NCBI GenBank assembly: GCA_030765185.1
Contig: JAVCDE010000022.1
Coordinates: 1 to 43,844, forward strand
Length of the DNA: 43,844 nt
Source of the DNA: Candidatus Aceula meridiana
GTDB lineage: Bacteria > Omnitrophota > Gorgyraeia > Zapsychrales > Aceulaceae
Reading direction: 5' to 3'
Shown here: in pieces, positions 11,927 through 43,844 of the stretch
How the letters are laid out: every line of letters starts with the position of its first letter
How positions within the stretch are numbered: position 1 is the stretch's first letter
The notes under the pieces: model-generated
The model's input: the letters and a program-made list of their open reading frames with translations, nothing else
Databases searched by the model: none
Told to the model about the DNA's origin: nothing
Made by a program: the position numbers and the translations under genes

Positions 11927-12105
11927 TTAATATCTCAAATAGCAGAAGGTGCACGTGCAAATTCCTCTTAAAGATTAAATTCTTCGAAGAGAAATTTTTG
12001 CCTGGCACCTCTCCTTAATATCTCAAATAGCAGAAGGTGCACGTGCAAATTCCTCTTAAAGATTAAATTCTTCGAAGAGAAATTTTTGCCTGGCACCTCT
12101 CCATA
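11914..12105 (-). repeat. Tandem 88-bp structured repeat at the 5' end of tRNA-Ser(GCT)
   Basis: Two near-identical units (11914-12001 and 12002-12089) plus a partial third (12090-12105) overlap the first 13 nt of tRNA-Ser. Each unit starts, on the tRNA strand, with the tRNA 5' end GGAGAGGTGCCAG. A stem-loop GCAAAAATTTCTCTT / AAGAGGAATTTGC follows, then ACGT and the inverse copy GCACCT, then about 24 nt leading into the next tRNA-like start. GCACCT can pair with AGGTGC of either the mimic or the true tRNA (nt 5-10). Confidence 0.85.
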
Positions 12106-12112
12106 ATGTCTA

Positions 12113-18876: not shown

Positions 18877-19033
18877 AAAAACTGAGCACAGGGTCAAAGC
18901 ATCTAATCAACTTGACTTATCTCAAATCGTATGGCCATATGTGTAGTAACGAGTTCCGAACCCTTTGGTTTTCGGGACAAAGATTGGGATAAGGAAGTCT
19001 AATAAATCCCCAAACCTTAAAGGAGATCGCAAT

Positions 19034-21144: not shown

Positions 21145-21145
21145 T

Positions 21146-21212
21146 TCCTAGTAAATGGTTTTTACAATCTTAGAAAATAGCGCTATATCGCCTTGATATT
21201 CATTTACTAGGA
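21146..21212. repeat. 12-bp inverted repeat just after the recombinase gene
   Basis: TCCTAGTAAATG (21146-21157) and CATTTACTAGGA (21201-21212) are perfectly complementary and start 2 bp past the recombinase stop, with a 43-bp loop. It could be a recombinase binding or crossover site, an element end or a terminator. A matching copy was not seen left of the DUF2924 gene. The remaining 21213-21432 shows no gene. Confidence 0.5.
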
Positions 21213-21432
21213 CTCCTTTACTAAGCCGCCATATAGAGATAAAGAGATACCTTCACGACGATTCCCGAGCAACTCGTTGATCTCTGCTAATCCGGGTTGA
21301 AATGATCTGGAACATCGAAAAAAAATAATGCGGTAAGTGTTTGACACATGCGGACATAAAGAAAACTCTGAACAATATCCTCGTCCAGAGCCAAAACATT
21401 CTCTCATCGCTACCCGACGAGAAAATACAAAA

Positions 21433-21521
21433 CGGAGAGGGAGAGATTCGAACTCTCGAGCCACCTTACAGTAGCCACACGCTTTCCAAGCGTGCGCTTT
21501 CAACCACTCAGCCACCTCTCC
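21433..21521 (-). tRNA. tRNA-Ser(GGA)
   Basis: Class II tRNA. The acceptor is GGAGAGG/CCTCTCC, the anticodon arm is CACGC-TTGGAAA-GCGTG with anticodon GGA, there is a long variable arm, and the T arm is GAGAG TTCGAAT CTCTC. After the discriminator G the gene reads TTT, so CCA is not encoded and must be added, unlike tRNA-Asn, tRNA-Ser(GCT) and tRNA-Arg here. Confidence 0.96.
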
Positions 21522-24367: not shown

Positions 24368-25273
24368 CTATTCTGAAGTTAAAACTTTTGTCTGAGTATG
24401 ATCCGGTGGCTTTGGACTTGGGATGACCCCTCGAGGAACAGGATCGCCTAAAACAGTCTGTTGGTTAAAATCAAACTTACGATTCAAACGCACAGGCATT
24501 GTCCTCTGAACCGTTACGCGCATTGGGCCTGCTGGCCCCATAGACATCTGAGAACCAACCGGAGTAATTGTTAAAGGATCTGCTCTCGTTTGCGCCTCTG
24601 GAATCAAAGCTTGATCCTTTTGAGTTTGTGCAGCATACTCTTTTCCTCTAATAACAAGTTCAAGCTGTTCAGCAAGAGGATCCTGCTTCATCTCCCGTAA
24701 CCGCGTAATGCTCTCCAAAACACGAGGAGTATCTCCACTCATAAAATATGCCATTCCAAGGCCAAAATAAGCCGACGGATGTTTTACTCTTTCAAGAACC
24801 ATCTGAAAATATTGCACAGCATCATCAGGGCGCGACTTCCCCAAAAGATAAATCCACCCTAAAGACAACATCGCGTTAACAGATTCAGGATTAATTTCTA
24901 AAGCTCTTGCTGTATGTTTTTCCGCTAAATCAAAATGTCCTAATCCATAATACGCTTTACCCAAATTTATTAAAGCTAATTCGTAGGTTGGGTCAATATC
25001 TACAGCGGCCTTAAAGTACCAGGCAACCTCAATAGGATCAAGTCCCGCCTCCTGATAAGACATGCCTAAAAAATTATAGGCTGGAGCAAAATTTGGGTTC
25101 AGCTCAACAACCTTCTCAAGAAATTCGATGGCCTTTTCGTGCTCTCCCTTCTGGGCATACTGCACAGCCTGAGAAAAGATATCCTTATAGTTCTGTGCAC
25201 AAGCCTTCGAAGGAAAAAAAAGAACTACCCAGAGCAACGCTGCTAAAAAAAATCTTTTTTGCATCACTCTCAT
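24368..25273 (-). CDS. TPR lipoprotein/periplasmic protein of the T2SS cluster
   Basis: The 301-residue protein has a signal peptide (1-26, cleavage near ACAQ; the Cys at 25 also allows lipidation). About five tetratricopeptide repeats span residues 28-190 (GEHEKAIEFLEKVVELNPNF, and NPESVNAMLSLGWIYLL-type units). A Pro/Arg-rich unstructured tail follows (about 215-301). The start overlaps the gspM stop (ATGA). TPR proteins such as PilF/PilW assist secretin assembly in related systems, so a pilotin-like or scaffold role is plausible but inferred. Confidence 0.82.
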   Translation of the reverse strand: MRVMQKRFFLAALLWVVLFFPSKACAQNYKDIFSQAVQYAQKGEHEKAIEFLEKVVELNPNFAPAYNFLGMSYQEAGLDPIEVAWYFKAAVDIDPTYELALINLGKAYYGLGHFDLAEKHTARALEINPESVNAMLSLGWIYLLGKSRPDDAVQYFQMVLERVKHPSAYFGLGMAYFMSGDTPRVLESITRLREMKQDPLAEQLELVIRGKEYAAQTQKDQALIPEAQTRADPLTITPVGSQMSMGPAGPMRVTVQRTMPVRLNRKFDFNQQTVLGDPVPRGVIPSPKPPDHTQTKVLTSE

Positions 25274-26265
25274 TCTTTCTCTCCCCCTTCTGGCTGCACT
25301 ACCTTTTTCATAATATTTTCAAAAATACTTGGCTTCACTTCCGGACCCTTCTGCTCTTTATCTTGTGGGAGATTCTTTATTTTTTGCGCGCCCTTCATCG
25401 TGAAACGCTGTGATAATTCCGGAGTGCCGCCGTTTGCACCGCCTAATGCCTTTCCGTCAACCTCTCCGCTTACAGCAGAAGAGTTTGACTTCCCAGAGCC
25501 ACCTGCGCTAGAACTACCTGCCTTGCCTGATCCACCGCCTGAGCCAGAGCCACCTGCGCTAGAACTACCTGCCTTGCCTGATCCACCGCCTGAGCCAGAG
25601 CCACCACCTGAACCACCTTTAGAATCTTTTGATCTTCCCCTTGAACTCTCACTCCTAGAGTCTGCGCTGTCTAAATCCTTACCTTCTTCTCCATCAACAG
25701 AATCGAATTCATGTAAAGAATCAATAATGATCTTTGCTACGACCATCCCCACTAAAACCTCATCGCCACTGGCACGCTTTAAACTCATGTTAATCTTTAT
25801 AATCTTTAACAACTCCTCAGAAGTGTCAATCGCGTGCATAAAATTAGTAATATTTTCTAAAAGCCCTTCACACTCTAAATTGGCATAATATTCAGCATAT
25901 CCCTTTTTTTGTTCAGAATCCGAAGGGCTTACTTTTATCAAATTCACTTTTGATTGCGACGCCATTATTTCTAGCTTCTTTAAGAAATCTGCAATAATTT
26001 CTTCAACCGTTAACGACTCAGCCCCATAATACTTCTTTAGCTCTTCGTTATCTTTTAAAATTCGATCCTTATAAGAAAGAAAGCGAAGATCTCTTTGAAT
26101 TACATTCTTTTGATGTCGAATCTGTTCATCAAGAGATGACATTTTCGAAAAAACAGGCCCTAAAAATACACGGTCAAGCACCATCAATAAAACAATGGCA
26201 ACCGCAATATAGAAAATTTTCTTCTCTTTATCAGATAGTTTTGTGAAAAAATCTTGAAATGACAA
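25270..26265 (-). CDS. gspM: GspM/PilO-like T2SS inner-membrane protein with Gly-Ser linker
   Basis: The 331-residue protein has one N-terminal membrane helix (about 16-35, IFYIAVAIVLLMVLDRVF). A coiled coil (about 40-75) and a PilO/GspM-type ferredoxin-like periplasmic domain (to about 190) follow. After that comes a Gly/Ser linker (about 205-265) built partly from an exact 17-residue tandem repeat. It ends with a Lys/Pro-rich tail and a glutamate cluster. Position after gspL and start 1 bp before the gspL stop support the assignment. The linker and tail are not part of ordinary GspM. Confidence 0.72.
   Translation of the reverse strand: MSFQDFFTKLSDKEKKIFYIAVAIVLLMVLDRVFLGPVFSKMSSLDEQIRHQKNVIQRDLRFLSYKDRILKDNEELKKYYGAESLTVEEIIADFLKKLEIMASQSKVNLIKVSPSDSEQKKGYAEYYANLECEGLLENITNFMHAIDTSEELLKIIKINMSLKRASGDEVLVGMVVAKIIIDSLHEFDSVDGEEGKDLDSADSRSESSRGRSKDSKGGSGGGSGSGGGSGKAGSSSAGGSGSGGGSGKAGSSSAGGSGKSNSSAVSGEVDGKALGGANGGTPELSQRFTMKGAQKIKNLPQDKEQKGPEVKPSIFENIMKKVVQPEGGEKE
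25495..25596 (-). repeat. 51-bp tandem repeat encoding a Gly-Ser linker in gspM
   Basis: Two exact 51-bp units (25495-25545, 25546-25596) encode SGGGSGKAGSSSAGGSG-type residues in frame; a partial third unit follows. Exact DNA identity implies recent duplication. Confidence 0.9.
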
Positions 26266-27780
26266 TTATCCTCCCGCAGCAGCATCACCTACGACTGCTT
26301 CTGTTTCAACGGCTTCTACTTCCTCGTCCTCATTTTCATCTTGCGCGCTTTCCAAGCGAAAGACAATTTCAAAAGAGGCAACATCCTTGCCGCGTTCTTT
26401 TTTTGCAGTCGTTGATTTTGTTTTAACGCCTTTAAACAGCTCAGAATTTTCTAACGTTCCCACCAAAGCAAAAACTTGAGACATAGAATCTGAAGTCCCA
26501 TCAATTGTAATTCTTCCTTTTTCATCAATAATAAAAGATTTTAAATAAATTTCATCAGGAATGATAAAATAGAGTTCCCTCAAAGCTTCTAAAGGCACCA
26601 AACGGCTATTCAAGTACGACTTAACAATTCTTGTTTTTGTAGAAGTTCTTTCTAGTTCACGTGCCTGGCGCTCGGTAGCCCGATATTCACTTTTAATTTT
26701 CTCCAAAAGAGTGTTTTTAAAATAAACCTTGCTCATAAAAATCACTCCGATAATAATTAAAAAAATAATAGCCAATGCCCCCAATTTTATTCCTTCCCGT
26801 CCTTGCTCTTCAATAGAACGCTGCATGCTAATTTCTTCAGGAATAAAATCAATCTTCCCAGGTTCTTTTAAAAACCCCGGAGAAATGACGTCAAAAAAAC
26901 TTTCATCCTTATTTTGTTCAATAATTTTTTTCGCTTCCGGAGAAAAGTTTAAACGGTCAACATACGAAACAGTTTTAACTGGAACCTTAAGTTGTTCCGC
27001 AATAATAAACTCAAGGCCTTTGATGTCTTCTCCAACATCAAAAAGAATATACTCTTTGGGAAGTTGCTCAATATCTTCATTCTGGTACGAATCAATAGAT
27101 TGTTTTAACTCATCGCCAAGCTTCTTTTCTGCGGTTTCCTTATCTTCTGTGATCTGCGCAAGTCCAACAGGGATGCTGCGGCAGGCGATGGCAGTACCGT
27201 GCAGCATAACGGTAAAATCTGTATACTCTTTTCCAATATTAATAATCCCAACTGGGGCATCATCAAGGGCGGCACCAAAAATACTAGTATAAAATCCAAC
27301 TTTTGTCTCTGGCGTAAAAAGGACATGGTGGACGCTTAACCCTGTATCCTGTAGAATTTTAATTTGACGGAAGATAACATTGCAATTTACAATGACAAGG
27401 AGAATTTTACTATAATTCTTTTGATAAATACCAAAATTAATATACCCAATAATAATTTCTTCTCGAGAAAAAGGAGTATGCCGTCCGGCTTGCAGGTCAA
27501 TGATAGATTTTATTTCATGCGGATCAACAGAAGGAATTTCAATATTCTTTGTTGTCGTAGCATTGGGGGACAAAGCACAAACCGTTTCTGCCTTTACAAC
27601 ACCAAACTCACTTAAACTTGTCTTCACTTTTGAAGTGATGTCCTGATCAGAAAGCCCTTTGATGTCAATTATTGCTAGACGGCTAACCTGAGCGTTTTTC
27701 TGAAAAGGTTTTATCAAAGCAAGTTTAAGCGTCTGCTCTGTTAAGTGAGCGATAATTGATCCTGTAGCCTTTTTTAACAT
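26266..27780 (-). CDS. gspL: GspL-like (PilM+PilN fused) T2SS protein
   Basis: The 504-residue protein joins an actin-fold PilM-like cytoplasmic domain (about 1-330) to a PilN-like part. The first part contains ALDDAPVGIINIGKEYTDFTVM, the phosphate/hinge-type block, and GEDIKGLEFIIAEQLKV. A membrane helix at about 340-362 (GALAIIFLIIIGVIFM) is followed by a coiled coil and a ferredoxin-like periplasmic domain (to about 475). The C-terminal acidic tail (EDEEVEAVETEA) is unusual. GspL anchors GspE to the inner membrane. It overlaps gspK by one base (TAATG) and abuts gspM. Confidence 0.8.
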   Translation of the reverse strand: MLKKATGSIIAHLTEQTLKLALIKPFQKNAQVSRLAIIDIKGLSDQDITSKVKTSLSEFGVVKAETVCALSPNATTTKNIEIPSVDPHEIKSIIDLQAGRHTPFSREEIIIGYINFGIYQKNYSKILLVIVNCNVIFRQIKILQDTGLSVHHVLFTPETKVGFYTSIFGAALDDAPVGIINIGKEYTDFTVMLHGTAIACRSIPVGLAQITEDKETAEKKLGDELKQSIDSYQNEDIEQLPKEYILFDVGEDIKGLEFIIAEQLKVPVKTVSYVDRLNFSPEAKKIIEQNKDESFFDVISPGFLKEPGKIDFIPEEISMQRSIEEQGREGIKLGALAIIFLIIIGVIFMSKVYFKNTLLEKIKSEYRATERQARELERTSTKTRIVKSYLNSRLVPLEALRELYFIIPDEIYLKSFIIDEKGRITIDGTSDSMSQVFALVGTLENSELFKGVKTKSTTAKKERGKDVASFEIVFRLESAQDENEDEEVEAVETEAVVGDAAAGG

Positions 27781-28805
27781 TACAATCCTTCACTCCAATA
27801 AATTATTTTATGACTTGCGGCATCATAAACACATCGGATACTTTTTTTCTGCGGCAAAAAGCTTAGCTCTGAATTACTTTCAATCATATAATATCTTGAA
27901 TAGATGCCAATTTTTCCTTGATCAAGTAATAATGCGATGTGTCGCCCTTCGCTCTCGCTTAGTGAATCATCTTTCCCAATGCTTGTAAAAAACGATTCAA
28001 AAGACGAAAAAATGTTGTCATCTCCTGTGGCCTCTTTTCCATCCGGACCACGCCTTACAGATAAAATTTTATCAGCGACTCCTTCGTTTATCCCTAATGC
28101 AACAAAAACCTGCCAAGGTGCTGTATTAACATTGACCTTCCCCTCTCCGTATATTGTAATGAATGAGCGAAGGCGATCAAATGCAAATGGGGTCACTCCC
28201 TCGACGAGAAGCAATTCATCAAGCGTTTCAAATTTATCATTCTTCGGCTGATAAGGGTACTTTAAATTTTCATAATATTCATCACTAAAAAACCCGCTTA
28301 AGACACTCTCGCCAAGCTCACGCCAATCAACAACAGACAAAGCCAATCCTTCCGCTTTTTCTTGTTCCCAGCCGAGAACATATTGAAAAAGGCGAGCGAG
28401 TTCTTGCTGGCTTGCCATATTAATGTTTATTTTTCTTTCTTCATCCATCATACCATAATGAAATGTCGTTTTGGTGAAAGTTTTATCAAAATCCTTATAA
28501 CGAACATCAAATGTCGCGCGGTCTAATACAATATCTTTAAACTCTTTCTTATTGTTCATAAGGCTCTCTTTTAACGTCGCACTAAGCCCCCTAGAAACAT
28601 CTTGCATGTTTAAATATGTAACTGCCTTTTTAATTCCAGATTCCGCGGCAAAGGAAAGAATGTCTCGATTCTCCATTCTTGAAAGAAGAATGATTTTTTG
28701 TCGCGCGCCTGCCCCTAAATAAAGGGCAAAAACCGCAAGAAGCCCAAGCGCCCAAAGAGCAATCATTAAAATCATTCCGGATTCATTTCTTAAATAACGC
28801 CGCAT
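27780..28805 (-). CDS. gspK: T2SS minor pseudopilin GspK
   Basis: The 341-residue protein has an N-terminal prepilin-like helix (ESGMILMIALWALGLLAVFALYLGAGARQ; the mature start would be at S/G-M with Glu at position -1/5-like spacing). The large GspK domain contains repeated helix-hairpin motifs NINMASQQELARLF and VNVNTAPWQVFVALG, plus the DWRE segment. GspK caps the pseudopilus tip with GspI and GspJ. It follows gspJ by 3 bp and overlaps gspL by one base. Confidence 0.85.
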   Translation of the reverse strand: MRRYLRNESGMILMIALWALGLLAVFALYLGAGARQKIILLSRMENRDILSFAAESGIKKAVTYLNMQDVSRGLSATLKESLMNNKKEFKDIVLDRATFDVRYKDFDKTFTKTTFHYGMMDEERKININMASQQELARLFQYVLGWEQEKAEGLALSVVDWRELGESVLSGFFSDEYYENLKYPYQPKNDKFETLDELLLVEGVTPFAFDRLRSFITIYGEGKVNVNTAPWQVFVALGINEGVADKILSVRRGPDGKEATGDDNIFSSFESFFTSIGKDDSLSESEGRHIALLLDQGKIGIYSRYYMIESNSELSFLPQKKSIRCVYDAASHKIIYWSEGL

Positions 28806-28808
28806 AAA

Positions 28809-29408
28809 TTATAGCCCTATAGGAACATTGATTAACTTTACCATCTTACGAAGTTCGTCTCCTACAAAATACTCAACATCAACGGCCACCTGACAAGGGA
28901 TAATCGTCTCGGCTTCTTCCTCTTGAGTCAATCCTTGATCAGTTAGATAAAAATAGCTAAAACGCAACGTGCGAATATTTTTGGCTAAAACTTGCTTTTT
29001 TAAAAATTTTCCCTTTACCGCTAAACCATAATTAAAAACTTGTCTTTCGATTTGCTGCGTACGCTTATTTAAAGAATATCGGACTTTTCCAATCTGATTA
29101 ACATAAGGCGACCTAATGCCGCTTTCGGGGTCTGTCGGAACCACAACGCGTGTCGCGAATTCCAAAGCCTTGGCACTACCCTCAATCGGAATCAAAGAAT
29201 AGAAAAACGCATTGTGAAGGTCATCCTCAATCTTTTCTAAAAAAATGACAACATCCTCTTCGCCAAAGAATTTTTCTCCATAATCCCAAATTTTTAATCC
29301 ATTGGCAAACGCCTGATAAATTGCGATGCTTAAAGTCGCAAAAAGTGCCACAACAATCAACACTTCCGGCATCGTAAAAGCAGTTTGTTTTTTTCTAAAT
29401 TTTTGCAC
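28809..29408 (-). CDS. gspJ: T2SS minor pseudopilin GspJ
   Basis: The 199-residue prepilin-type protein has a short basic leader, then cleavage before FTMPE. The residue before the cut is Ala instead of the usual Gly, while Glu5 is kept. A hydrophobic helix (VLIVVALFATLSIAIYQAF) and a beta-rich GspJ-type globular domain follow. It lies between gspI and gspK with gaps of 3 bp on both sides. Confidence 0.8.
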   Translation of the reverse strand: MQKFRKKQTAFTMPEVLIVVALFATLSIAIYQAFANGLKIWDYGEKFFGEEDVVIFLEKIEDDLHNAFFYSLIPIEGSAKALEFATRVVVPTDPESGIRSPYVNQIGKVRYSLNKRTQQIERQVFNYGLAVKGKFLKKQVLAKNIRTLRFSYFYLTDQGLTQEEEAETIIPCQVAVDVEYFVGDELRKMVKLINVPIGL

Positions 29409-30304: not shown

Positions 30305-31510
30305 CTATCGCGCAAGAACATCCATTTGAAATATTGGCAATAACATTGCCATGATCACAAGACCAACAACCCCTCCAACAATTAAAATCATTGCTGGCTC
30401 TAAAATTGTTGTTACTATTTTCATAACGTCATTGACTTCCTGTTCATACGTGTCTGCGACATCCTTAAGTGTGTCCTCTAAAAGGCCAGACTCCTCACCA
30501 ACTTTAACTAGCTGAACAACTATCGGCTCAATAAATCGACAACTCTGAAAGCTCGCAGCCAAAGATTCTCCGGCCTCAAGACTGTCTTTACATTTTGAAA
30601 AGTCCTCCCGCATAAATGCGTTGCCAATAATCGGTACCGCAACACGTAAAGACCGCAGCAAAGGAATGCCACTGCACAAAAGCAATTCGAGCGTCCGACA
30701 AAAACGTGCCAACTCAACTTTTTTTACTAAAGCACCAATCAAAGGAATGCGTAATTTTAGGTCATCTATAATACGCCGCCCAGCAGTAGATTGACCCCAA
30801 CGAATAATCGAAAAAACAATCAGCATAAGTACCGGCAAGACAATAAACCATCCTTTTCTCAAAATTTCACTAACTCCAATCAGAATTCTAGTCGGAAGCG
30901 GGAGGTCTTGACCAATATTAGCAAATAACGCTATAATCTGTGGCATAACAACAGTTAAAATGAAAACAACGGTAGCGAGTCCAATCACTGCCATAAAGAC
31001 AGGATAAACGAGTGCAGTTTTAACTTTTGAAGCAATCTCGTGCTGTGCCTTTTGATGCCGTTCAAGCGAGAGCAATATTTCCTGCAAGTTTCCACCTTCC
31101 TCACCAACGCGCACCATCGACACATAAAGCATAGAAAAAACTTTCGAATGACGGCTTAAGCCGTCTGAAAAGTTCCTCCCCTCCCTAATGTCTTGCTGCA
31201 AGGATTCTAAGAGATCCAAAAAAGAACTATTCGTTGTTTGTTCTCGAATGATTTCAATGGCACGCAAAAGCGGAATACCAGCTTTTAATAAATTTGCAAG
31301 CTGGCGTGTAAAAACATGTCGTTGTTTTGCGCTAATACGCCCAGTGCCCTTCTCTTTGCTTTTTCCCGACACTTCGCACTCTTCTATCGTAATCGGCAAA
31401 ATTCCCTGGCGGCCAAGCAACTCGATTGCCTCGTCCTTTGTTCTTGCCGGAACTTGCCCTGACAAGAGCTCTCCATTTATTTTTTTAGCATGATACTGAA
31501 AAAGTGGCAT
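30305..31510 (-). CDS. gspF: T2SS inner-membrane platform protein GspF
   Basis: The 401-residue platform protein contains two T2SSF domains (about 70-190 and 270-390), each with the E-x3-LL-AGIPLLRAIEII-type helix pairs and GEE-GNLQEIL / GEESGLLEDTL motifs. Three membrane helices are present: VYPVFMAVIGLATVVFIL, WFIVLPVLMLIVFSI and the C-terminal AMILIVGGVVGLVIMAMLL. It couples GspE to pseudopilus growth. Length and order after gspE are typical. Confidence 0.95.
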   Translation of the reverse strand: MPLFQYHAKKINGELLSGQVPARTKDEAIELLGRQGILPITIEECEVSGKSKEKGTGRISAKQRHVFTRQLANLLKAGIPLLRAIEIIREQTTNSSFLDLLESLQQDIREGRNFSDGLSRHSKVFSMLYVSMVRVGEEGGNLQEILLSLERHQKAQHEIASKVKTALVYPVFMAVIGLATVVFILTVVMPQIIALFANIGQDLPLPTRILIGVSEILRKGWFIVLPVLMLIVFSIIRWGQSTAGRRIIDDLKLRIPLIGALVKKVELARFCRTLELLLCSGIPLLRSLRVAVPIIGNAFMREDFSKCKDSLEAGESLAASFQSCRFIEPIVVQLVKVGEESGLLEDTLKDVADTYEQEVNDVMKIVTTILEPAMILIVGGVVGLVIMAMLLPIFQMDVLAR

Positions 31511-31527: not shown

Positions 31528-33747
31528 TTATTTTGTTTCTTTGCTATCTCTTTCTTTAACCCAATTATCAATATGTGCACGGTCCGCGGAAGAAATATCC
31601 AAATAATAAGCAACAAGATTATAGTGTCTTTTGTCCTTATTTTTCTCAACTCTTGAAACCTTAGCCAGGCATTCTACGGCTTTCTGATTAGTCTCCTTTA
31701 AAAATATTTTAATTTCAATAATAGAGCCAATCGGTAATGGATAATCTGAAATCAAAAGAACACCCCCCGCGCCGATATTTTCGGTATGCGTTGAATATTC
31801 AAGGCTCTCTGCCTGAACGGCTAGGGCATCAGGATCGCTTTTAAAAATACGGAACCGAACATCAACCTGCTCGTCAATTCGTGTATACGTGCGCGCATCA
31901 AATTCTTTCTTTTCTGATAACGCATCCTTAGAAAGGACCTTGTATTCACGCCCCTTAGAATCATTTGCCTTATAGCTCATCGCCTCTGCTGGGATCTCAG
32001 GAATTGTTTTCAAAGATCCTTGAAGCTCCTCATCGTCTCTGGAAGTGACACTTAAAACCTCATACGGAGTCGTAATTCCTCTAAGGACCTTAAGCCAGCC
32101 GTCTTGTCGAAGCGTCAACATTCCATTTTTCCTAGCAATTTGCTTAATATAATCTGACCTTGGCTTCTCAAGAAGCGCCGTACGAACCTCATCGCTCATA
32201 AGTAAAACCTCATATATTGCCGTTCTTCCATAATAACCCGTTCCATTGCAACGGTCGCATCCACGCCCCTGATATACTTTAATGGTCTCACTCTCATTAA
32301 GATCAAGGCAGTGCAAGATTTCCTGTTTTATCTCAGGCAAACACTCGACTTCTTCTTTGCAATTCTTACAGATAATGCGAACTAATCGCTGTGCAACAAA
32401 GGCCTCAATACTCGACGACACCAGATATGGCTCAACCTTCATTTCAATCAAACGTGTTATGCCACTCGCGGCGTCATTGGTGTGAAGTGTTGAAAAAACA
32501 AGATGCCCGGTTAAAGCTGTCCGGATCGCAATCTCCGCAGTTTCCAAATCGCGTACCTCTCCCACCATGATGATGTCTGGGTCATGCCTTAAAACGCTGC
32601 GCAATCCAGCCGCGAAAGTTAATCCAATCTTTGGATTAACTTGAATCTGCGTAACATCTTCCATTTCGTATTCAACAGGATCCTCGATAGTAATAATCTT
32701 ACGCTCTGCGGAATTAACTTCATGAAGGCAAGAATAAAGCGTTGTTGTTTTTCCACTTCCGGTTGGCCCTGTTGCAAAAATAACACCATGAGGCTTTCCG
32801 ATAAGCTTGCGGAAGATCTTGATATTCTTCTCATCAAGGCCTAATTTTTCTAAACGAAAAGTCATGACCTTCGTTGGCAGAATACGGATAACCATGCTCT
32901 CGCCCTGCGGAGTCGGAATCGTAGAAACGCGTAAATCAAGAGTCTGATCCTGAACCTTAACCACGGCACTGCCATCCTGGGGAACACGCTTTTCAACAAT
33001 ACTCAAATTTGACATAATCTTAATGCGCGATAAAATCGGCAAAATAAAATGCTTAATGTCATTAGGAAGGTTCGCATCAACTAAAGCTCCGTCAATGCGA
33101 TAACGAAACCTTACTTTTTCACGATAAGGCTCGATATGAATATCCGTTGCCCTTTTCTTATAAGCTTCAAGAATAATCTGATTAACAAGTTTTGAAACCG
33201 ATGCATCATCAGACTTTTGCTCTAGGTCTTCAACCCACTTTGTATTCTCATCCCCAAAAGCCTCTTTGCGGACCGGCTCTTTTGTTAAAATGCGATCAAT
33301 CATATCCGCAGCCAAGCCATAATGCTTCTTTAAAGCATCCAAGACGTCAGTTTCCGACGACAAAACAACGCGCGGCTCATAACCTAAATGCAGGCGTATC
33401 TCATCTTGTATTTTTACACCCAAAGGAGCTGAAGCAGTCACCGTTAAAACTTTATTATCGATTCGAATCGGCATAAATTTGTAATACCAAGCAATTTTAA
33501 CGGGAATCTTTTTGATAACAGCAGGATCGATCTTTAAACGCTTTAAATCAACAGCCTCCATAGAAAAATGCTTTCCAAGTGCGTCAAGAATCTGCTGCTT
33601 TGTCAAAAACCCATTTCTTATCAAATATGAATCTAATGATTCGTCGGTTGCCTCAACAGCTTCAAGCGCGCTATCAATAGACTCTTTCGGCAAAACATCG
33701 CCTTGGGAAAGGGCCTCAAACAAAACTTTATTAGCTAGTTGCGTCAT
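31528..33747 (-). CDS. gspE: T2SS assembly ATPase GspE with fused C-terminal PilZ domain
   Basis: The 739-residue protein has an N-terminal T2SSE_N domain (about 1-150) and the ATPase (about 200-570). The ATPase contains GPTGSGKTTTLYS (Walker A), ITIEDPVEYE, LRHDPDIIMVGEVRD (Walker B) and TLHTNDA. A tetracysteine zinc loop (CKNC ... CDRC) follows. Unlike standard GspE (about 500-570 residues), it then carries a PilZ domain from about residue 615 to 735. That domain has RTYTR (RxxxR, residue 619) and NIGAGGVLLIS (an N-x-G-x-x-G form of the second motif). Pseudopilus assembly may therefore be gated by c-di-GMP. It starts 13 bp after atpD. Confidence 0.95.
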   Translation of the reverse strand: MTQLANKVLFEALSQGDVLPKESIDSALEAVEATDESLDSYLIRNGFLTKQQILDALGKHFSMEAVDLKRLKIDPAVIKKIPVKIAWYYKFMPIRIDNKVLTVTASAPLGVKIQDEIRLHLGYEPRVVLSSETDVLDALKKHYGLAADMIDRILTKEPVRKEAFGDENTKWVEDLEQKSDDASVSKLVNQIILEAYKKRATDIHIEPYREKVRFRYRIDGALVDANLPNDIKHFILPILSRIKIMSNLSIVEKRVPQDGSAVVKVQDQTLDLRVSTIPTPQGESMVIRILPTKVMTFRLEKLGLDEKNIKIFRKLIGKPHGVIFATGPTGSGKTTTLYSCLHEVNSAERKIITIEDPVEYEMEDVTQIQVNPKIGLTFAAGLRSVLRHDPDIIMVGEVRDLETAEIAIRTALTGHLVFSTLHTNDAASGITRLIEMKVEPYLVSSSIEAFVAQRLVRIICKNCKEEVECLPEIKQEILHCLDLNESETIKVYQGRGCDRCNGTGYYGRTAIYEVLLMSDEVRTALLEKPRSDYIKQIARKNGMLTLRQDGWLKVLRGITTPYEVLSVTSRDDEELQGSLKTIPEIPAEAMSYKANDSKGREYKVLSKDALSEKKEFDARTYTRIDEQVDVRFRIFKSDPDALAVQAESLEYSTHTENIGAGGVLLISDYPLPIGSIIEIKIFLKETNQKAVECLAKVSRVEKNKDKRHYNLVAYYLDISSADRAHIDNWVKERDSKETK

Positions 33748-33760
33748 AAATAAACTCCGC

Positions 33761-36242
<2,482 letters not shown>

Positions 36243-36248
36243 GCGTCC

Positions 36249-36992
36249 TTATCCTTTTTCAAGATCCTCTTTTAATTCAACTGTCTTTTCTGCAATGGCA
36301 TTATGCAAGCTTCCATCTAAAACAAGGCTTCCAAATTTTAACAATGCCCCACCCGTAATCTTTGGATCATTCTGATAATTAAATGTAATTTCACGATTCA
36401 GCTTATCCTTAATCAATTTTTCAATTTTAGTTCGGTTATCCGCTGACATCTCAGAAACCGTAACAACATCAACCACTTTAACCATATCAGAAATTTGAGA
36501 CGGATCAACATCCTTTAACTTTTCAAGAAATTCATCAATAAGTCTATCAGAAAATGCGCCACTTGAACGATCCCCTAAAACAGCTTTTAAAATTTCAGAA
36601 GCTTGGCCCACAAGTTTAATGCTAAGTTCTTTTTCAATTTCCTCTCGAACAGCATCTCGTGTACGATGAGCCTTGGTAATAATCTCCTCGGCCTCTTTTC
36701 TTGACTTCTCAATAACTTTCGAACGCTCCCCTTTTGCGGCTTCTTCGGCATCTTCCATCATTTTCTTAACAAGCTCTTCAGCCTCTTTCTTACGCTTCTC
36801 AAGCTCTTCATTAGCCTCTTTAATTTTTTGATTGAGGTCTGCCTGCTTAGCTCGCGCTCCCTCAGTTTCCGTATTCAATCTATTGACAGCGCCTTGCGTG
36901 CTCGATATCAAAAAACGATGAAGAAAAAAGATAATAACTCCTGAAACAACAAATGTTAAAATCAAAAATTGTAAAATTAGCATTCCACCCAT
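36249..36992 (-). CDS. atpF: F-type ATPase b/delta fusion (delta N-terminal domain missing)
   Basis: The 247-residue protein has one N-terminal membrane helix (about 4-26, LILQFLILTFVVSGVIIFFLHRFL). A long charged coiled coil of subunit b (about 30-165) follows, ending DRLIDEFLEKLKDV. The last 75 residues match only the C-terminal part of delta (ITGGALLKFGSLVLDGSLHNAI). The six-helix N-terminal domain of delta that normally grips the alpha N-terminus is absent. Alpha in this operon also lacks its N-terminal helix, so the stator connection at the top of F1 must differ. Confidence 0.85.
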   Translation of the reverse strand: MGGMLILQFLILTFVVSGVIIFFLHRFLISSTQGAVNRLNTETEGARAKQADLNQKIKEANEELEKRKKEAEELVKKMMEDAEEAAKGERSKVIEKSRKEAEEIITKAHRTRDAVREEIEKELSIKLVGQASEILKAVLGDRSSGAFSDRLIDEFLEKLKDVDPSQISDMVKVVDVVTVSEMSADNRTKIEKLIKDKLNREITFNYQNDPKITGGALLKFGSLVLDGSLHNAIAEKTVELKEDLEKG

Positions 36993-37004: not shown

Positions 37005-37247
37005 TTATGCTCCCTGACCATAATCAGCCAAAATATGATAAAGAATTAATAATAAACTAAACGATATAATTTCCAATAAAGTAAGCTTTAAAAGAATGCT
37101 TAACTGTATCGCCGGTGTTTTGCTTGGGTAAAAAGCAATACGACGAGCAAGTTTCCATCCTAAAACACAGACACCAATACATGGCAGTGCAATAACAACA
37201 AAGAATGAAAGTACCAAAATTAACGATGCTATCCATAAATGTTCCAT
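37005..37247 (-). CDS. Second c-like F0 subunit
   Basis: The 80-residue protein has the two-helix hairpin of subunit c. Helix 1 is about 6-30, the polar loop about 33-45 and helix 2 about 47-73, with a central carboxylate Glu59 in LKLTLLEIISFSL. The loop reads ARRIAFYPSKTP, with no R-N/Q-P motif for rotor contact, and the usual Gly repeat of helix 1 is missing. It lies 6 bp after the first c gene with its own GGGAGG site. Two c paralogues in one operon suggest a mixed ring or a separate role for one of them. Confidence 0.75.
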   Translation of the reverse strand: MEHLWIASLILVLSFFVVIALPCIGVCVLGWKLARRIAFYPSKTPAIQLSILLKLTLLEIISFSLLLILYHILADYGQGA

Positions 37248-37253
37248 TGCCTT

Positions 37254-37475
37254 CTACCTCCCAAATAACTGAAAAATAACTAAAATAGCAATAATCGAAA
37301 TCGCTTCAACAAAAATTAGCATAACAATGATGCCCATAAAAATTTTCGATGCCGCTGATGGATTTCGCCCAAGCGCCTTTACAACAGCATATCCTAAGAC
37401 CGCAATAACAAGAGACGGACCCATAACCGCAATAAACATAATTGAAATAATAATAAAAGTTTCTCGCCATTGCAT
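37254..37475 (-). CDS. atpE: F-type ATPase c subunit
   Basis: The 73-residue hairpin has helix 1 at about 6-33, the polar loop GRNPSA (36-41) that contacts gamma and epsilon, and helix 2 with Glu57 in IFVEAISIIAIL. At the helix-1 position used for sodium ligation (P-x-x-x-Q) the residue is Ile24, so proton use is more likely than sodium. The usual GxGxGxG pattern of helix 1 is weakened (AVMGPSLVIAVLGYAV). It is followed by the second c-like gene with a 6-bp gap. Confidence 0.88.
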   Translation of the reverse strand: MQWRETFIIISIMFIAVMGPSLVIAVLGYAVVKALGRNPSAASKIFMGIIVMLIFVEAISIIAILVIFQLFGR

Positions 37476-37498: not shown

Positions 37499-37825
37499 TT
37501 ATTCACTGTCTTTCTCCGTATCCGTGCTAAAAGCGATTTCATCTTCTACTTTCTTCTTCTTCTTCTTCTCTCTTGGCATTGGTTCAACCAAGATAATACA
37601 ATCATTTGCAAAAAAACGAATCAATCCCGACTTGATGGAAATGCTTTCTTTCCAGTCGATAATAATGGCACCTTTTTTTAGAATTCCTATGACCGGATAA
37701 TGATACGGCAAAACTTCATACTCGCCTCGATCTCCGGTTAAAAAAATACTTTCGACCTCGTTTTCATAGACCAAGGCGTCAGGAGTCATGACCGTTAGTT
37801 TAAATGTGATTCGGTACCGCGCCAT
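37499..37825 (-). CDS. atpC: F-type ATPase epsilon subunit, N-terminal domain only
   Basis: The 108-residue protein carries the epsilon beta-sandwich (about 5-85, LTVMTPDALVYENEVESIFLTGDRGEYEVLPYHYPVIGIL). The C-terminal inhibitory helix pair is missing; instead there is a Lys-rich run then an acidic tail (PREKKKKKKVEDE...). This suggests loss of epsilon autoinhibition. A strong AAGGAGG site precedes ATG 37825. It is second in the operon, right after alpha, an unusual place. Confidence 0.85.
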   Translation of the reverse strand: MARYRITFKLTVMTPDALVYENEVESIFLTGDRGEYEVLPYHYPVIGILKKGAIIIDWKESISIKSGLIRFFANDCIILVEPMPREKKKKKKVEDEIAFSTDTEKDSE

Positions 37826-37843: not shown

Positions 37844-39418
37844 CTATTCTTTTTTCTCAGACTCTGATCCCTTTTTTCCATCCTCCTTCTTAGAAGTCGT
37901 AGACTCAAGAGCGTCAACGCCAACGCCAAAATCTTCGTCATCTTCATCTTCATCCTTTGGTCGACGCTCTTCGATTTCTTTAACATACATTTGCATCACT
38001 TCTGTAATGCCCTTGTCAATCTCTTCATCAACCTCTCTTCGCTCACGAATAATTTTAGTAAGATTAGGATTTTTCTCATTCGCATAATCTAAAATTTTTA
38101 GCTGAAATTCTTTAACTTCTTCGATTGTTAATTCATGAAGAATTTTCTTTTTTACCGCAAAGAAAATAATAACCTGGGCCTCAAGAGCTACCGGGGAATC
38201 TTTATCTTGCTTTAAAATTTCGCTTAAAATCTCACCACCTTTTAGCTGCTGTTGAGCCTCGTCGGTTTGACCAGAAGTTTTTAACTTTGATATGCGCATC
38301 AATTCCTTATACTGAACATACTCCAAGCGCAAAGACCCGCTAAGCTTCTTAATCGCTTTCCACTGAACCTTACTTCCAACGCGGGAAACAGATAAACCAA
38401 GATCCACAGCTGGTTTTTGTCCTTCTCCGAAAAGAGGAGTACTTAAATAAATCTGGCCGTCTGTCATGGAAACTAAATTTGAAGGTACATAGCCTGTCAA
38501 ATCGCCCTCTAAAATCTCAACAATAGGGAAGAAAGTTATTGATCCGCGACCGTGCTCTTCTCTCATAAAAGCAGCACGCTCGATCATCTTTGAATGAAGA
38601 TAAAAAATATCTCCAGGATAAGAATCGCGCCCTGGTGGACGACCTAAAAGAAGCGAAATTTCCCGATATGCCCACGCATGTTTCGTAAAATCATCAAAAC
38701 CAATAAAGACATCTTTTCCTTGATGCATAAAATATTCAGCAATAGAGCAAGAAACATACGGCGCAAGATACTGTTGCCCCGGCGGAGCCGAAGCGTTTGC
38801 CGAAACAATAAGTGAATACTCAAATGTATTATTATCCTGAAAAAGCTGAACAACCTTTGCCAAGGCTGAACGCGCTTTTCCGATACCACAATAAATACAA
38901 ATAACACCAGTATTTTTTTGATTAAGAATCGTATCGGTGACGATTGTTGTTTTGCCGGTCATCTTATCCCCTAAAATAAGCTCTCGCTGTCCAAGGCCAC
39001 ATGGGATCATCGTATCAATAACTTTAATGCCGGTTTCTAACGTCTTGCATAAAGGATCACGGGTTAAAATCGCAGGAGCATCGATGAAAATTGGGTAGAC
39101 GGCATCGCTTTCAAGAGGACCTAGTCCATCCATAGTCTCGCACAAAGGATTCATAATGCGACCGATAAATTTATCACCAACAGGGGTATTAAAAGGTTCA
39201 AGAGAGGCAATAGCTTTATCTCCTGTCTTGAGCTTTTCCTCTTCCTTGACTAAAAGAATTTGTGCTTCCGTCTCGTCAAATCCAAGAATGATCCCTACAG
39301 TTCCATATCCAAATTGAATGAGCTGGCCAGCAATACAACTCTGAAACCCGTCAACAATGACAATACACCCTCGAATACAACGAACAACTCCTTCTTCGGT
39401 ATAGCGTAAAACTCCCAC
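37844..39418 (-). CDS. atpA: F-type ATPase alpha subunit, lacking the N-terminal delta-docking helix
   Basis: The 524-residue non-catalytic subunit keeps Walker A GDKMTGKT (150-157), the ETGIKVIDTM segment and the arginine finger in SVSRVGSKV. The crown begins almost at residue 8, so about 20-25 N-terminal residues of ordinary alpha are missing. A TGA codon directly precedes the GTG start at 39418, so no longer form is possible. The C-terminus adds a highly acidic then Lys/Glu-rich tail (about 490-524). A GGAGG site lies 7 nt before the GTG. Confidence 0.93.
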   Translation of the reverse strand: MGVLRYTEEGVVRCIRGCIVIVDGFQSCIAGQLIQFGYGTVGIILGFDETEAQILLVKEEEKLKTGDKAIASLEPFNTPVGDKFIGRIMNPLCETMDGLGPLESDAVYPIFIDAPAILTRDPLCKTLETGIKVIDTMIPCGLGQRELILGDKMTGKTTIVTDTILNQKNTGVICIYCGIGKARSALAKVVQLFQDNNTFEYSLIVSANASAPPGQQYLAPYVSCSIAEYFMHQGKDVFIGFDDFTKHAWAYREISLLLGRPPGRDSYPGDIFYLHSKMIERAAFMREEHGRGSITFFPIVEILEGDLTGYVPSNLVSMTDGQIYLSTPLFGEGQKPAVDLGLSVSRVGSKVQWKAIKKLSGSLRLEYVQYKELMRISKLKTSGQTDEAQQQLKGGEILSEILKQDKDSPVALEAQVIIFFAVKKKILHELTIEEVKEFQLKILDYANEKNPNLTKIIRERREVDEEIDKGITEVMQMYVKEIEERRPKDEDEDDEDFGVGVDALESTTSKKEDGKKGSESEKKE

Positions 39419-39503: not shown

Positions 39504-40916
39504 TTACGACTCTTGTTTCTCTTCTTCTTTCTCATCATCGTCAGACGCACCAACCTCTTTAATTTCTCCATGAGTTTCTTCAGCGTTCTCCTCTCCCATA
39601 AACTTAGAACGACTACGCCATGTAAAAAAGTGAATGCTTGTGAAGAGCGCAATAAAAGCCAATATTCCCCAAACAATACGCCAAGTCATTGTAACCGATA
39701 AACGCTTGCCGAAAAGAGCCTTAGAAATCGCATTAACACCTCGCAAAGCCTGAATATTCCTCAAAATATTTTTAACCTGGCCGCCCTCAAGCTTTTTTAG
39801 CTTTTGTAATTTCTCAGTCGCAACAAGCGCCAAGGCCCGTTCGAGTTGATGTAAAGATTGTTCAGCATTCTTAAAACGTTCTCGATTAATACGAAATGTT
39901 CCAATTTCTTCATCAATACTTTCAACAACATTTTGCGACTCACGAATTTTCTTAATTTCTTTAAAAACCTTTTCAGCTAAAAAATTTGCTGTCTCATCTG
40001 TTATGCTAGAAATTCCTTCCGCGTCCATAACTGCAGACAAACCTTGTTTAGCTCGATCTTCCATAGAATCCAATATTGGCTTTGGAATATGCCATGCGTC
40101 TTTAAGTATAACAACATATCGTTTTTTTTCACCAGGCTGAAATTCTTCAGTTTTAGTTAAATATGCCTGCTGACGCTTTTCATCAAATCGCACATCAAAA
40201 CCCTGGTCATCAACAATATCTCGAGCCCTAATCTCTTTTGGAAGATAATGCTTCTGTGTAACTTTCTTGACCTCTGTTTCTGACGGATTTTCTACCTCAA
40301 GAATAAGCCGGACATCATCGCCTTCGAGCTTAGGCTCAAGGGGATATGAGGATAGATAGTCCGCTGAGAATGCACTCCTCTTAAGCTCTGTAAACATGTC
40401 AAGGTTAGCACGATATTCCTCAATTCGCCTTTCAATGTTATCGCTAAATTTCGTTTGCCTTTCAAGAATATAGTCTAATTTCTTATGCAAAGCATCACGT
40501 AAAATCGATGCAGAAGAATAGTATTGTGTATTTTTGAGAGCGACTAAATTTTTATCAACTTGTCCCTTAATAATATTGACTTCTTTTGGGTCGATTTTCC
40601 AAACGTCTCTTACTTTAATCTTAAGAGTCTTCGATTCCTTAGCTGCTAAGGAAACATCGCCATGCGCGTAATATTGGCCTTTATCTTCATCATAGCTTAT
40701 CTTAAGAGGTCCGAGGTCAAGGACATCGTCGGGTGACAGCTCAGGAGGCAAGTAATATTTTACAGAGGTATCCTGGTCTTCTTCCGTTCCATTAACGGCA
40801 ACAAGATTAATGTTAAGGCTTTGCGCAAAAAGGTTGCTAACTAAGAGTAAAGATAAGATCACCCCTACCGTAAAAAATAAAATAATCTTTTTTTTAAAAA
40901 TCTGTTTTTTCTTCAC
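39504..40916 (-). CDS. Periplasmic membrane-anchored protein with duplicated domain, upstream of the ATPase
   Basis: The 470-residue protein has a signal peptide or anchor (1-32). It contains two copies of a beta-domain (about 35-130 and 202-300), each with K(Y/H)YLP-E ... D(I/V)-D ... DVW/DAWHIP blocks, and each followed by a helical coiled-coil stretch. One C-terminal membrane helix (410-432) leads to an acidic cytoplasmic tail (434-470). Most of the protein would sit in the periplasm. It is not an a subunit: only one clear internal membrane helix exists. It lies 85 bp upstream of atpA and 26 bp downstream of the INW-repeat gene. No family is recognised. Confidence 0.78.
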   Translation of the reverse strand: MKKKQIFKKKIILFFTVGVILSLLLVSNLFAQSLNINLVAVNGTEEDQDTSVKYYLPPELSPDDVLDLGPLKISYDEDKGQYYAHGDVSLAAKESKTLKIKVRDVWKIDPKEVNIIKGQVDKNLVALKNTQYYSSASILRDALHKKLDYILERQTKFSDNIERRIEEYRANLDMFTELKRSAFSADYLSSYPLEPKLEGDDVRLILEVENPSETEVKKVTQKHYLPKEIRARDIVDDQGFDVRFDEKRQQAYLTKTEEFQPGEKKRYVVILKDAWHIPKPILDSMEDRAKQGLSAVMDAEGISSITDETANFLAEKVFKEIKKIRESQNVVESIDEEIGTFRINRERFKNAEQSLHQLERALALVATEKLQKLKKLEGGQVKNILRNIQALRGVNAISKALFGKRLSVTMTWRIVWGILAFIALFTSIHFFTWRSRSKFMGEENAEETHGEIKEVGASDDDEKEEEKQES

Positions 40917-40942: not shown

Positions 40943-43844
40943 TTATTCTGCACTTTCAAACCAACTCTTAACAACAACCTCTTGAGCGCCAACTGCCTCT
41001 GTAAGAGCAGCAAGTTTTGCGTTAATTTCCGCGAGCTTTGAATGAACCTTGTCGATATCCGTCCCTTCTCCTGCACCGCCAAGGTCTTCAGCTGATACAC
41101 CATCGACAGTTACACCATCAATCCCAAGTGATTTGGCAGATTCATCAACAAAATTTGATAATTTCGATAACATCTCTGCTGCAAGATTACCTGTTTCAAG
41201 TTGACTTTCAGAAATTGTTTCAGAAGCAATCTGCAACTCTTCTAAAGCCTCATTAAGTTTTTTCAGTTTTCCATAAACATTTGGCGTCATACCTTCTGCA
41301 CCAATTTCGCTACGGACACTTTGAACTTCTCCTAAAGCTGCTTCTGCACCGCTCTTTGCCTTATCTACGTTAGTCCTGATCGCTGTGAGCTTTGACAATT
41401 CAGCAAAGACAGTCTCAGCGGTTTCATCATCTCCTGAAACCCCTATCAAGCTTTCAACCGTGTCAACGTAGCCTTCTATTCCGTTAAGAGCACCAAACAC
41501 AGTTGTTGTACCCGCATCCGTTGAAGTCCCAACAGCAGTCTCAATGACTTCTACAGCTGCGCTTATGTCATTGATCTTTGAAAGGTCAAGGCTTGATAAC
41601 TCATCGACAACAGTTCCTAATTCCTCAAGCCCTTCGATTGAACCAACCGCATTGTAAATCAAGGCTAATTTCCCAAACAAAGTGTTATCCTCTAATGTGT
41701 CCGCAGAATCTCCAAGAGACGAATTTAGCGTGTTGACAACTGTTAAAATCGAATTAATATTGGTAACAATTGTTTGCGCATTATCTGCAAGATAGGCAAT
41801 ATCATTCCAATTAATATTGGCACTTGTCATCGATGCTAAATCGCTCCAATTAACTCCTGCATTGCTAGTAACGCCCATATCGTCCCAGTTAATGCCTGTT
41901 CCCGACATATAAGAAAGATCTGCCCAGTTAACTCCTCCTGTCGACATTGAAGCAATATCATCCCAATTAATACCGGCTTCGGTCATGACCTGAAAATCTA
42001 CCCAATTAATCCCGGATTCGGTTAATGCGCCGATGTCCTCCCAATTAATGCCGGATTCACTTAGTCGTCTTAAGTCTACCCAATTAATTTGTTCTGATGC
42101 CAAAAATCTAAGATCTGCCCAGTTAATGCCAGATTCGCTTAATGCACCAATATCTATCCAGTTGACGCCAACGTCTGCCAATTCGCTGATATCTTCCCAG
42201 TTAATTCCAGCTTCAGATAAAGTCCCGATGCCAGACCAATTAACACCGGCTGCGCTAAAATAGGCAATATCTGTCCAATTAACCCCGGAGTCGCTCAAAG
42301 ACGCAACATCAATCCAATTAATTCCACTTACGCTCATATCGTAAAGTTCTATCCAGTTAACACCAGCTTCTGTTAATGTGCCAATATCACTCCAGTTAAT
42401 TCCTCTAGAGCTTAAATCATAAAAAGCGGTCCAATTGATTCCTGTTTCGGCCATGCTGCCTATATCTGTCCAATTAATCCCACGTGAACCTAAATCATAA
42501 AATGCAGTCCAATTAACGCCCTTATCTGATAATGCTCCAATGTCATCCCAGTTAATGCCTGATTCGCTTAATGCTCTAACATCATTCCAATTAATACCCC
42601 GAGAGCTTAAATCATAAAAAGAAGCCCAATTGATGCCGGTATCAGATAAAGTTCCTATATCTGTCCAATTTATACCAACGCTAGATAAGGCTCCTATGTC
42701 AGTCCAATTGACACCTTGATCGCTTAAAGCGCCTATGTCTACCCAATTAATACCCTGGGTGCTTAAATCATAGATCGATGACCAATTGACACCTTGATCG
42801 CTTAAAACGCCTATGTCTACCCAATTAATACCCTGGGTGCTTAAATCGTAGATCGATGACCAATTGACACCTTGATCGCTTAAAGCGCCTATGTCTACCC
42901 AATTAATACCCTGGGTGCTTAAAGCCCTAAAGTCTGACCAGTTAACACCAGCAACACTTAAAGCTCCTATATCTGTCCAGTTAATTCCCTGTGAGGTTAG
43001 GTCGTAGAAAGCCATCCAATTAATACCGGATGCAGATAACGTTCCTAAATCAGTCCAATTAACTCCTGCACTTGACAACTCGCCAATGTCTATCCAATTA
43101 ATTCCGGTGGCGCTTAAAGCCGATATATCTGTCCAGTTGATTCCTCGTGAACTTAAATCATAAAAAGAAGTCCAATTAATTCCAGAATCAGACAAGCTTC
43201 CTATGTCTGTCCAGTTGATACCAGCTGCGCTTAAAACTCCGATGTCAGTCCAATTAATTCCCGTGGTGCTCAACGATCCTATATCGCTCCAGTTGATTCC
43301 TCGTGAACTCAAATCATAAAAAGAAGTCCAATTAATACCCGTCTCAGATAACGACCCTATATCGCTCCAGTTGATTCCTCGTGAACTCAAATCATAAAAA
43401 GAAGTCCAATTAATACCCGTCTCAGATAACGACCCTATATCGCTCCAATTAATACCGGCAAGACTTAAATTTTCTATATCAGTCCAATTAACACCAGAAT
43501 CGCTTAAAATACCGATGTCGACCCAATTAATACTGGCTGTTGTCATACCACTAAAGTCCGTCCAATTAATTCCGGAAGTTGTAAATACATTAAAATCGGC
43601 CCAATTAATTCCGGCTTTAGATAAAGCATTAATGTCATTCCAATTGACACCCTGGGCGCTCATATCATAAAGTGATAACCAGTTAATGCCCTGGTCGCTC
43701 ATGGAGTTGATGTCCGCCCAATCAATACCCTGGGCGCTCATATCATAGAGTGATAACCAGTTAATGCCCTGATCGCTCATGGAGTTGATGTCTGTCCAAT
43801 CAATACCCTGGGCGCTCATATCATAGAGTGATAACCAGTTAATG
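40943..43844 (-). CDS. Giant INW-repeat protein (5' end outside the window)
   Basis: The reading frame runs off the right edge (the bases 43820-43844 continue ...INWLSLYD in frame), so the start and any signal peptide are not visible. At least 52 full copies of a 13-residue unit, consensus GINWxDIxxLSxx, fill positions 41780-43844. The last 278 residues are different: low in aromatic residues, with five spaced units of the type TxFGKLxxI inside coiled-coil sequence, and an end reading VVVKSWFESAE. The repeats predict an extended solenoid and the C-terminus a stalk. It is the first gene seen in the ATPase/T2SS run. Function unknown; a surface or secreted substrate role is inferred. Confidence 0.85.
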   Translation of the reverse strand, partial: INWLSLYDMSAQGIDWTDINSMSDQGINWLSLYDMSAQGIDWADINSMSDQGINWLSLYDMSAQGVNWNDINALSKAGINWADFNVFTTSGINWTDFSGMTTASINWVDIGILSDSGVNWTDIENLSLAGINWSDIGSLSETGINWTSFYDLSSRGINWSDIGSLSETGINWTSFYDLSSRGINWSDIGSLSTTGINWTDIGVLSAAGINWTDIGSLSDSGINWTSFYDLSSRGINWTDISALSATGINWIDIGELSSAGVNWTDLGTLSASGINWMAFYDLTSQGINWTDIGALSVAGVNWSDFRALSTQGINWVDIGALSDQGVNWSSIYDLSTQGINWVDIGVLSDQGVNWSSIYDLSTQGINWVDIGALSDQGVNWTDIGALSSVGINWTDIGTLSDTGINWASFYDLSSRGINWNDVRALSESGINWDDIGALSDKGVNWTAFYDLGSRGINWTDIGSMAETGINWTAFYDLSSRGINWSDIGTLTEAGVNWIELYDMSVSGINWIDVASLSDSGVNWTDIAYFSAAGVNWSGIGTLSEAGINWEDISELADVGVNWIDIGALSESGINWADLRFLASEQINWVDLRRLSESGINWEDIGALTESGINWVDFQVMTEAGINWDDIASMSTGGVNWADLSYMSGTGINWDDMGVTSNAGVNWSDLASMTSANINWNDIAYLADNAQTIVTNINSILTVVNTLNSSLGDSADTLEDNTLFGKLALIYNAVGSIEGLEELGTVVDELSSLDLSKINDISAAVEVIETAVGTSTDAGTTTVFGALNGIEGYVDTVESLIGVSGDDETAETVFAELSKLTAIRTNVDKAKSGAEAALGEVQSVRSEIGAEGMTPNVYGKLKKLNEALEELQIASETISESQLETGNLAAEMLSKLSNFVDESAKSLGIDGVTVDGVSAEDLGGAGEGTDIDKVHSKLAEINAKLAALTEAVGAQEVVVKSWFESAE
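41780..43844 (-). repeat. 39-bp tandem coding repeat, 52 or more copies
   Basis: Each 39-bp unit encodes GINWxDIxxLSxx. Units alternate locally between a type with D after W (WTDIG) and a type with S/A-F/L/I-Y-D (WTSFYDLSSR), giving a 78-bp higher-order period in places. Exact copies (43307-43384 against 43385-43462, and near 42770-42930) show recent duplication. At least 52 whole units are in the window and the array continues off the right edge. Confidence 0.95.

Follow-up and report, generated by a model that had tools for sequence, protein, structure and literature searches.

A giant Omnitrophota protein built of 13-residue repeats, encoded between a secretion/pilus channel and a second F1-type ATPase

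The window (the whole stretch of 43,844 nucleotides analysed here) is a complete contig, C29, of the 1.91-Mb genome of Candidatus Aceula meridiana, which is assembled in 33 contigs. It stops within an array of 13-residue repeats, and the open reading frame that bears the array (40943-43843, minus strand) has an open 5' end. The features considered below are these:

about 41780..43843, minus strand: array of 53 13-residue repeat units (G[IV]NWxDIxxLSxx), the C-terminal part of a larger array
40943..41782, minus strand: C-terminal tail of the repeat protein, 279 aa, helix-rich
40946..40978, minus strand: extreme C-terminus VVVKSWFESAE (K[ST]W[FL]E motif), conserved among tails
39504..40916, minus strand: 470-aa protein with a signal peptide, two similar domains, one TM helix and an acidic tail
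37844..39418, minus strand: F1 alpha, second non-respiratory copy, P-loop and SRVGS arginine finger kept
37499..37825, minus strand: F1 epsilon, beta-sandwich domain alone
37254..37475, minus strand: c-type subunit 1, two TM helices, RNP loop, Glu in TM2
37005..37247, minus strand: c-like subunit 2, two TM helices, Glu in TM2, no Pfam match
36249..36992, minus strand: fused b/delta stator subunit
35391..36242, minus strand: F1 gamma
33761..35371, minus strand: F1 beta, P-loop GGAGCGKT and catalytic GERIREG kept
31528..33747, minus strand: GspE/PilB-type ATPase with MshEN and C-terminal PilZ (c-di-GMP-type) domains
30305..31510, minus strand: GspF/PilC
28809..29408, minus strand: minor pseudopilin with N-methylation motif
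27780..28805, minus strand: T2SS K-type pseudopilin
26266..27780, minus strand: PilM-PilN fusion (GspL-like)
25270..26265, minus strand: GspM/PilO-position protein, no Pfam match, named by its operon place

The original prediction described a regular array of at least 52 copies of a 13-residue repeat, and this is what the minus strand encodes. The 53 motif matches give 52 spacings, every one of exactly 13 residues, and every one of the 53 tryptophans among the first 690 residues has the same phase of 13, while the best of 2,000 shuffles placed 13 tryptophans in one phase. The window consensus is G-[IV]-N-W-x-[DS]-[IFL]-x-x-[LM]-[ST]-x-x; the invariance of N and W is partly by construction where units were picked by [IV][ND]W, which leaves the tryptophan figure of the window unaffected. 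Units are most alike at a distance of two (59% of amino acids at lag 2 versus 48% at lag 1), five lag-2 pairs share at least 95% of their DNA, and the 78-bp copies at 42704-42923 and 43649-43844 are 96-97% identical. Since the lag-2 pairs are most alike and the 78-bp duplications are recent, the duplicating unit is often two repeats. The exact local duplications that had been noted are therefore mostly two-unit steps, and the rapid length change proposed from them is borne out in that the array alters its length by duplication. Its length also differs widely between genomes.

The array had been expected to extend beyond the window. Within this genome, DNA matches to it occur only in the window contig and at the start of contig C32, where the array resumes. 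The C32 open reading frame, of up to 1,709 aa, has a signal-peptide-like segment near residue 97, the feature for which upstream sequence had been sought as a check, followed by an N-terminal domain and 63-69 motif matches, depending on the strictness of counting (about 65 units), with partly irregular spacing. The ends of C29 and C32 do not overlap. The repeat is present in all four genomes of the family, each repeat-bearing contig beginning or ending within the array. In genome G144 the gene is unbroken (contig C70, JADFZK010000004.1): 10,972 codons from stop to stop contain 756 motif matches (about 750 units), 709 of the 755 spacings are 13, and the giant ORF is flanked on the one contig by secretin/TPR and by anchor/F1 genes. 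As for the idea of an adhesin or other interaction protein, a very large surface-type protein with a signal peptide fits it; the adhesive part gained nothing from the N-terminal domain, which has no Pfam match and no known adhesive domain. At L103:4832-19399 there are two consecutive repeat ORFs of 2,898 and 1,950 aa, 20 bases apart, which could be tandem genes, the product of an internal stop or an assembly error.

The repeat had not been recognised as a named family, and a profile search agreed: it has no significant family match in Pfam, NCBIfam or PDB sequences. The Lysostaphin N-terminal repeat (Lysostaphin_N, PF25533) matched the array weakly, at 26.8 bits against a curated cut-off of 60, and was rejected; flagellin and LDL receptor, met as PDB profile matches at E 0.003 and weaker, were likewise rejected as kin. 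The repeat occurs in 15 of 197 genomes of the class and in 41 of 285 sampled genomes of the phylum, with 24 of 36 in its own order and 13 genomes outside its own class. Scanning bacteria and archaea, one genome per species, gave 39 loci nearly all labelled Omnitrophota, by exact consensus-like peptide patterns with which divergent repeats outside the phylum could be missed. The viral contig set that we searched held no copy. One contig labelled Puniceicoccaceae (L124, 7,951 bp) contains 198 repeat motifs and is probably a misbinned Omnitrophota contig. That label apart, the repeat was found only in Omnitrophota among the genomes searched, and the 13-residue family appears new.

Structure prediction of 10-15 units had been suggested, and it gave no confident structure. 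With a 73-row alignment, AlphaFold2 folded 15 units into short helices at pLDDT 47; given the 15 units alone, it returned beta-solenoid-like strands at pLDDT 51. Because the two low-confidence runs contradict each other and AlphaFold2 is known for unrealistic beta-solenoid predictions on repeats (PMC11795689), we claim no fold. The hydrophobic periodicity of the repeat has its maximum at 120 degrees, intermediate between what helices and strands show. A short capped helix would suit the consensus N-W-x-D-[IL]-x-x-L followed by the G that opens the next unit.

The tail that follows the array has helix-type hydrophobic periodicity above 95% of shuffles, by a general periodicity test rather than a coiled-coil predictor, and a coiled-coil stalk is a plausible reading of it. 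Just downstream lies the 470-aa protein, which we propose to be an inner-membrane anchor. Its relatives were found in sister lineages, where alpha similarity led us to 16 loci, 15 being in genomes that lack the repeat. The slot of the repeat gene is there filled by giants that are 2,000-4,100 aa long or longer, and both of the sister giants scanned (L134 and L138) have Ig-like Kre9_KNH domains by Pfam. In L134, L137, L138 and L148 the giant is fused at its C-terminus to an anchor domain and TM helix, while giant and anchor are separate genes in L142, L145 and L147. The profile of the window anchor aligned to these fused C-termini with hhalign probability 100 and E 7e-39. The stretch that immediately precedes the fused anchor domain gave a weak alignment with the repeat tail (probability 56, E 1e-4), in which KSWFE is in register with TWLEPGS. 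We infer that the repeat protein and anchor of the window may be the split form of the giant-anchor fusion.

Read in gene direction, the locus begins with a glycosyltransferase, an ExeA-like AAA protein, a GspC-position protein, a secretin and a TPR protein, which precede the repeat giant. The giant is followed by the anchor-type protein and then by F1 alpha, epsilon, c, c, b/delta, gamma and beta. After beta come GspE/PilB, GspF/PilC, pseudopilins, the T2SS K protein, PilM-PilN and the GspM-position protein. Secretin and TPR genes lie upstream of the repeat gene at all 18 readable 5' ends, each a distinct end; the anchor-type protein lies downstream at 20 of 22 readable 3' ends, and F1 alpha is on the same stretch in 15. 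That the repeat giant, the anchor protein, the secretin system and F1 form one conserved locus is well supported. Across the phylum, the giant gene nearly always has a secretion/pilus channel on one side and, on the other, a second rotary ATPase that is not the energy-making one.

In other families, at L132:4778-8049 (minus strand) and also in L095, L099, L106 and L123, one or two secreted FGE-sulfatase-like proteins are encoded between the TPR and repeat genes. Pfam matched the FGE-sulfatase-like domain in L132, and the Ca. Aceula meridiana locus has no such proteins. They are possibly fibre-tip or accessory proteins.

The secretin, GspE/PilB, GspF/PilC, K-type pseudopilin and PilM/N place the secretion apparatus among T2SS and type IV pilus systems. 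The PilZ domain on the window GspE/PilB, together with response regulator-GGDEF genes that adjoin the F1/c genes in sister loci (L133:8670-9563, L143:9806-10681, L145:14059-14952 and L148:9559-10467), suggests that the locus is likely under c-di-GMP control. The GspM-position gene contains, at 25493-25605, a 51-bp tandem repeat without mismatch, from which a linker rich in Gly and Ser is translated. Elsewhere in the window, a recombinase-like ORF and a small companion ORF adjoin a tRNA-Ser gene (18965-21521), which suggests an integrated element, and an 88-bp direct repeat, 98% identical, lies at a tRNA-Ser gene edge (11914-12111).

The window alpha, a second, non-respiratory F-type copy distinct from respiratory alphas, has pilus genes within 10 kb, as in the 'symbiotic' F-ATPase/T4aP loci of Omnitrophota. 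Both alpha and beta exceed the cut-offs of ordinary F1Fo ATP synthases (TIGR00962, 521 bits; TIGR01039, 519 bits); gamma, epsilon and c score far under their curated cut-offs. The alpha profile match starts near profile position 25, so the subunit may lack the N-terminal part that usually contacts delta. Subunit a (PF00119) was not found in this genome. The genomes without it are G000, G001 and G157, which carry the giant-linked cluster, and G002, which carries the repeat. Five further genomes (G003, G103, G118, G144 and G170) have it on a contig other than the giant-linked one, where it adjoins the respiratory alpha in the four for which alpha is listed. In L133, L145 and L148 an ORF of about 300 aa adjoins the c subunit gene, and in L143 such an ORF lies near epsilon; considered as a candidate for subunit a, it proved to be a response regulator-GGDEF protein. 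The genome also has separate V-type A and B subunits that serve energy, which we count in favour of a different task for the F1-type enzyme.

In a tree of 30 alpha sequences, the repeat-linked alphas group in a single clade (99/99; none of 500 shuffles came as low) and the Ig-linked ones fall in another. As repeat rows were picked by repeat and the others by alpha, this clustering indicates co-inheritance of repeat type and ATPase rather than function.

To explain the locus as a whole, we consider it rather probable that it encodes a giant fibre on the cell surface, which would pass out through the secretin, keep an anchor in the inner membrane and be served by an F1-type ATPase of its own. 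A partnership of fibre and ATPase is well supported, and the protein is likely to be a surface fibre whose base lies in the inner membrane. The repeat array would form the shaft of the secreted fibre, with the signal peptide and N-terminal domain at its start and the N-terminal domain as its distal tip. We infer that export could proceed via the T2SS/type-IV-pilus-like secretin encoded just upstream, and that the conserved K[ST]W[FL]E C-terminus could dock on the single-TM protein encoded just downstream, which would keep the base of the fibre fixed in the inner membrane. ATP hydrolysis by the second F1-type ATPase (alpha, beta, gamma, epsilon, two c-like subunits and a fused b/delta, with no canonical a) would drive export, assembly or movement of the fibre. 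The purpose would probably be to attach to other cells, pull on them or move over them.

Several observations count against this explanation. Two 3' ends, L112 and L129, have the repeat gene without adjoining anchor or F1, so the ATPase is not always linked to the repeat gene. In L136 a histidine kinase gene, not a giant, accompanies anchor and F1, and L143 and L146 have no giant gene at the slot. The tail-stalk link is moderate, helix-rich sequence can mislead, and the two gene halves of this genome are on separate contigs. The c-type subunits keep the RNP-type loop and mostly the TM2 glutamate, a hint that ion binding by them may still matter.

A bolder version is a new rotary surface machine, in which an F1 motor with a c-type rotor and no ion channel subunit would turn or pull a giant fibre running from the inner membrane via the secretin outward, with 13-residue or Ig-repeat shafts being interchangeable. 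We hold this combined proposal to be decidedly unlikely, and ATP-driven turning or pulling of the fibre is speculative.

The strongest alternative, which we regard as doubtful yet credible, is a passive giant fibrillar adhesin exported by the T2SS/pilus, with the F1-type ATPase as an operon neighbour that powers the pilus or some other process. The two repeat loci without adjoining F1 speak for it, set beside secretin and TPR genes at every readable 5' end, and the N-terminal domain, long repeat stalk and anchored C-terminus fit fibrillar adhesins (PMC9210967). A mere neighbour sits less well with a repeat type that tracks the ATPase clade, and with an anchor gene that stands between the repeat gene and F1 alpha and follows the repeat gene at nearly all 3' ends. 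Like fibrillar adhesins (PMC9210967), the protein would have a long repetitive stalk projecting an end domain and changes length fast; it differs in that no known adhesive or stalk domain is present, the N-terminal domain has no Pfam match, and the anchor is a separate or fused inner-membrane protein beside a secretin.

Could the second F-type ATPase instead be an ordinary ion translocator whose divergent subunit a is encoded elsewhere, the giant gene adjoining the ATPase by chance of operon assembly? The kept loop and glutamate of the c-type subunits and the atpA/atpD-level scores of alpha and beta are in keeping with this. Set against them are the four numbered genomes lacking PF00119 and the five in which it is never on the giant-linked contig, the low scores of gamma, epsilon and c, and the recurrence of the arrangement across many families, and we find the proposal very improbable. 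That the array forms a cell-wall or S-layer-like coat rather than an extended fibre is barely credible: giant Omnitrophota ORFs are proposed as coat-forming in PMC10066038 and array length varies widely, but a conserved C-terminus with adjoining inner-membrane anchor and secretin genes is atypical of coats.

The preferred reading, a fibre served by its own ATPase, has a functional analogy in the Mycoplasma gliding machinery, where an extra F1-like (G1) ATPase without subunit a is tied genetically or functionally to very large surface proteins, among them a giant leg protein (PMC11864180, PMC3369863, PMC7052211). The analogy (PMC3369863, PMC11864180) is drawn on function rather than on homology with Gli proteins, and the Omnitrophota locus differs in having c-type and b/delta subunits and a T2SS/pilus apparatus. 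Membership of the Mycoplasma gliding and Type 2-3 F1-like ATPases was rejected for alpha (416.5 and 297.1 against NCBIfam cut-offs of 600 and 520) and for beta (417 and 383 against 850 and 570; glide_MMOB1660/1670 and MSC_0618/0619). The Mycoplasma gliding and Type 2-3 F1-like ATPases are marked by the lack of a b/delta homologue and by X0 membrane proteins of their own, a trait that the c-type and b/delta subunits do not match.

Closer to home, PMC10066038 presents three separate signatures of Omnitrophota: giant ORFs, type-4a pili and 'symbiotic' F-type ATPases. In 57 of 66 contigs, pilus and ATPase lie no more than 10 kb apart. The loci agree with ours in phylum, in a non-respiratory F-type ATPase beside pilus/T2SS genes and in giant ORFs within the same genomes. 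The consulted portion of the paper does not put the giant gene in this locus, nor does it describe the 13-residue repeat, the anchor, the giant fusion or the missing subunit a, and as judged from it, the joining of pili, ATPase and giant genes in one locus appears new.

Giant genes, pili and the 'symbiotic' ATPase had been three separate hints of Omnitrophota living on other cells, and they now come together in one conserved locus. The repeat family and the anchor protein are handles for its study, and it becomes a testable question whether surface fibres are worked by recruited rotary F-type ATPases in organisms other than Mycoplasma as well.
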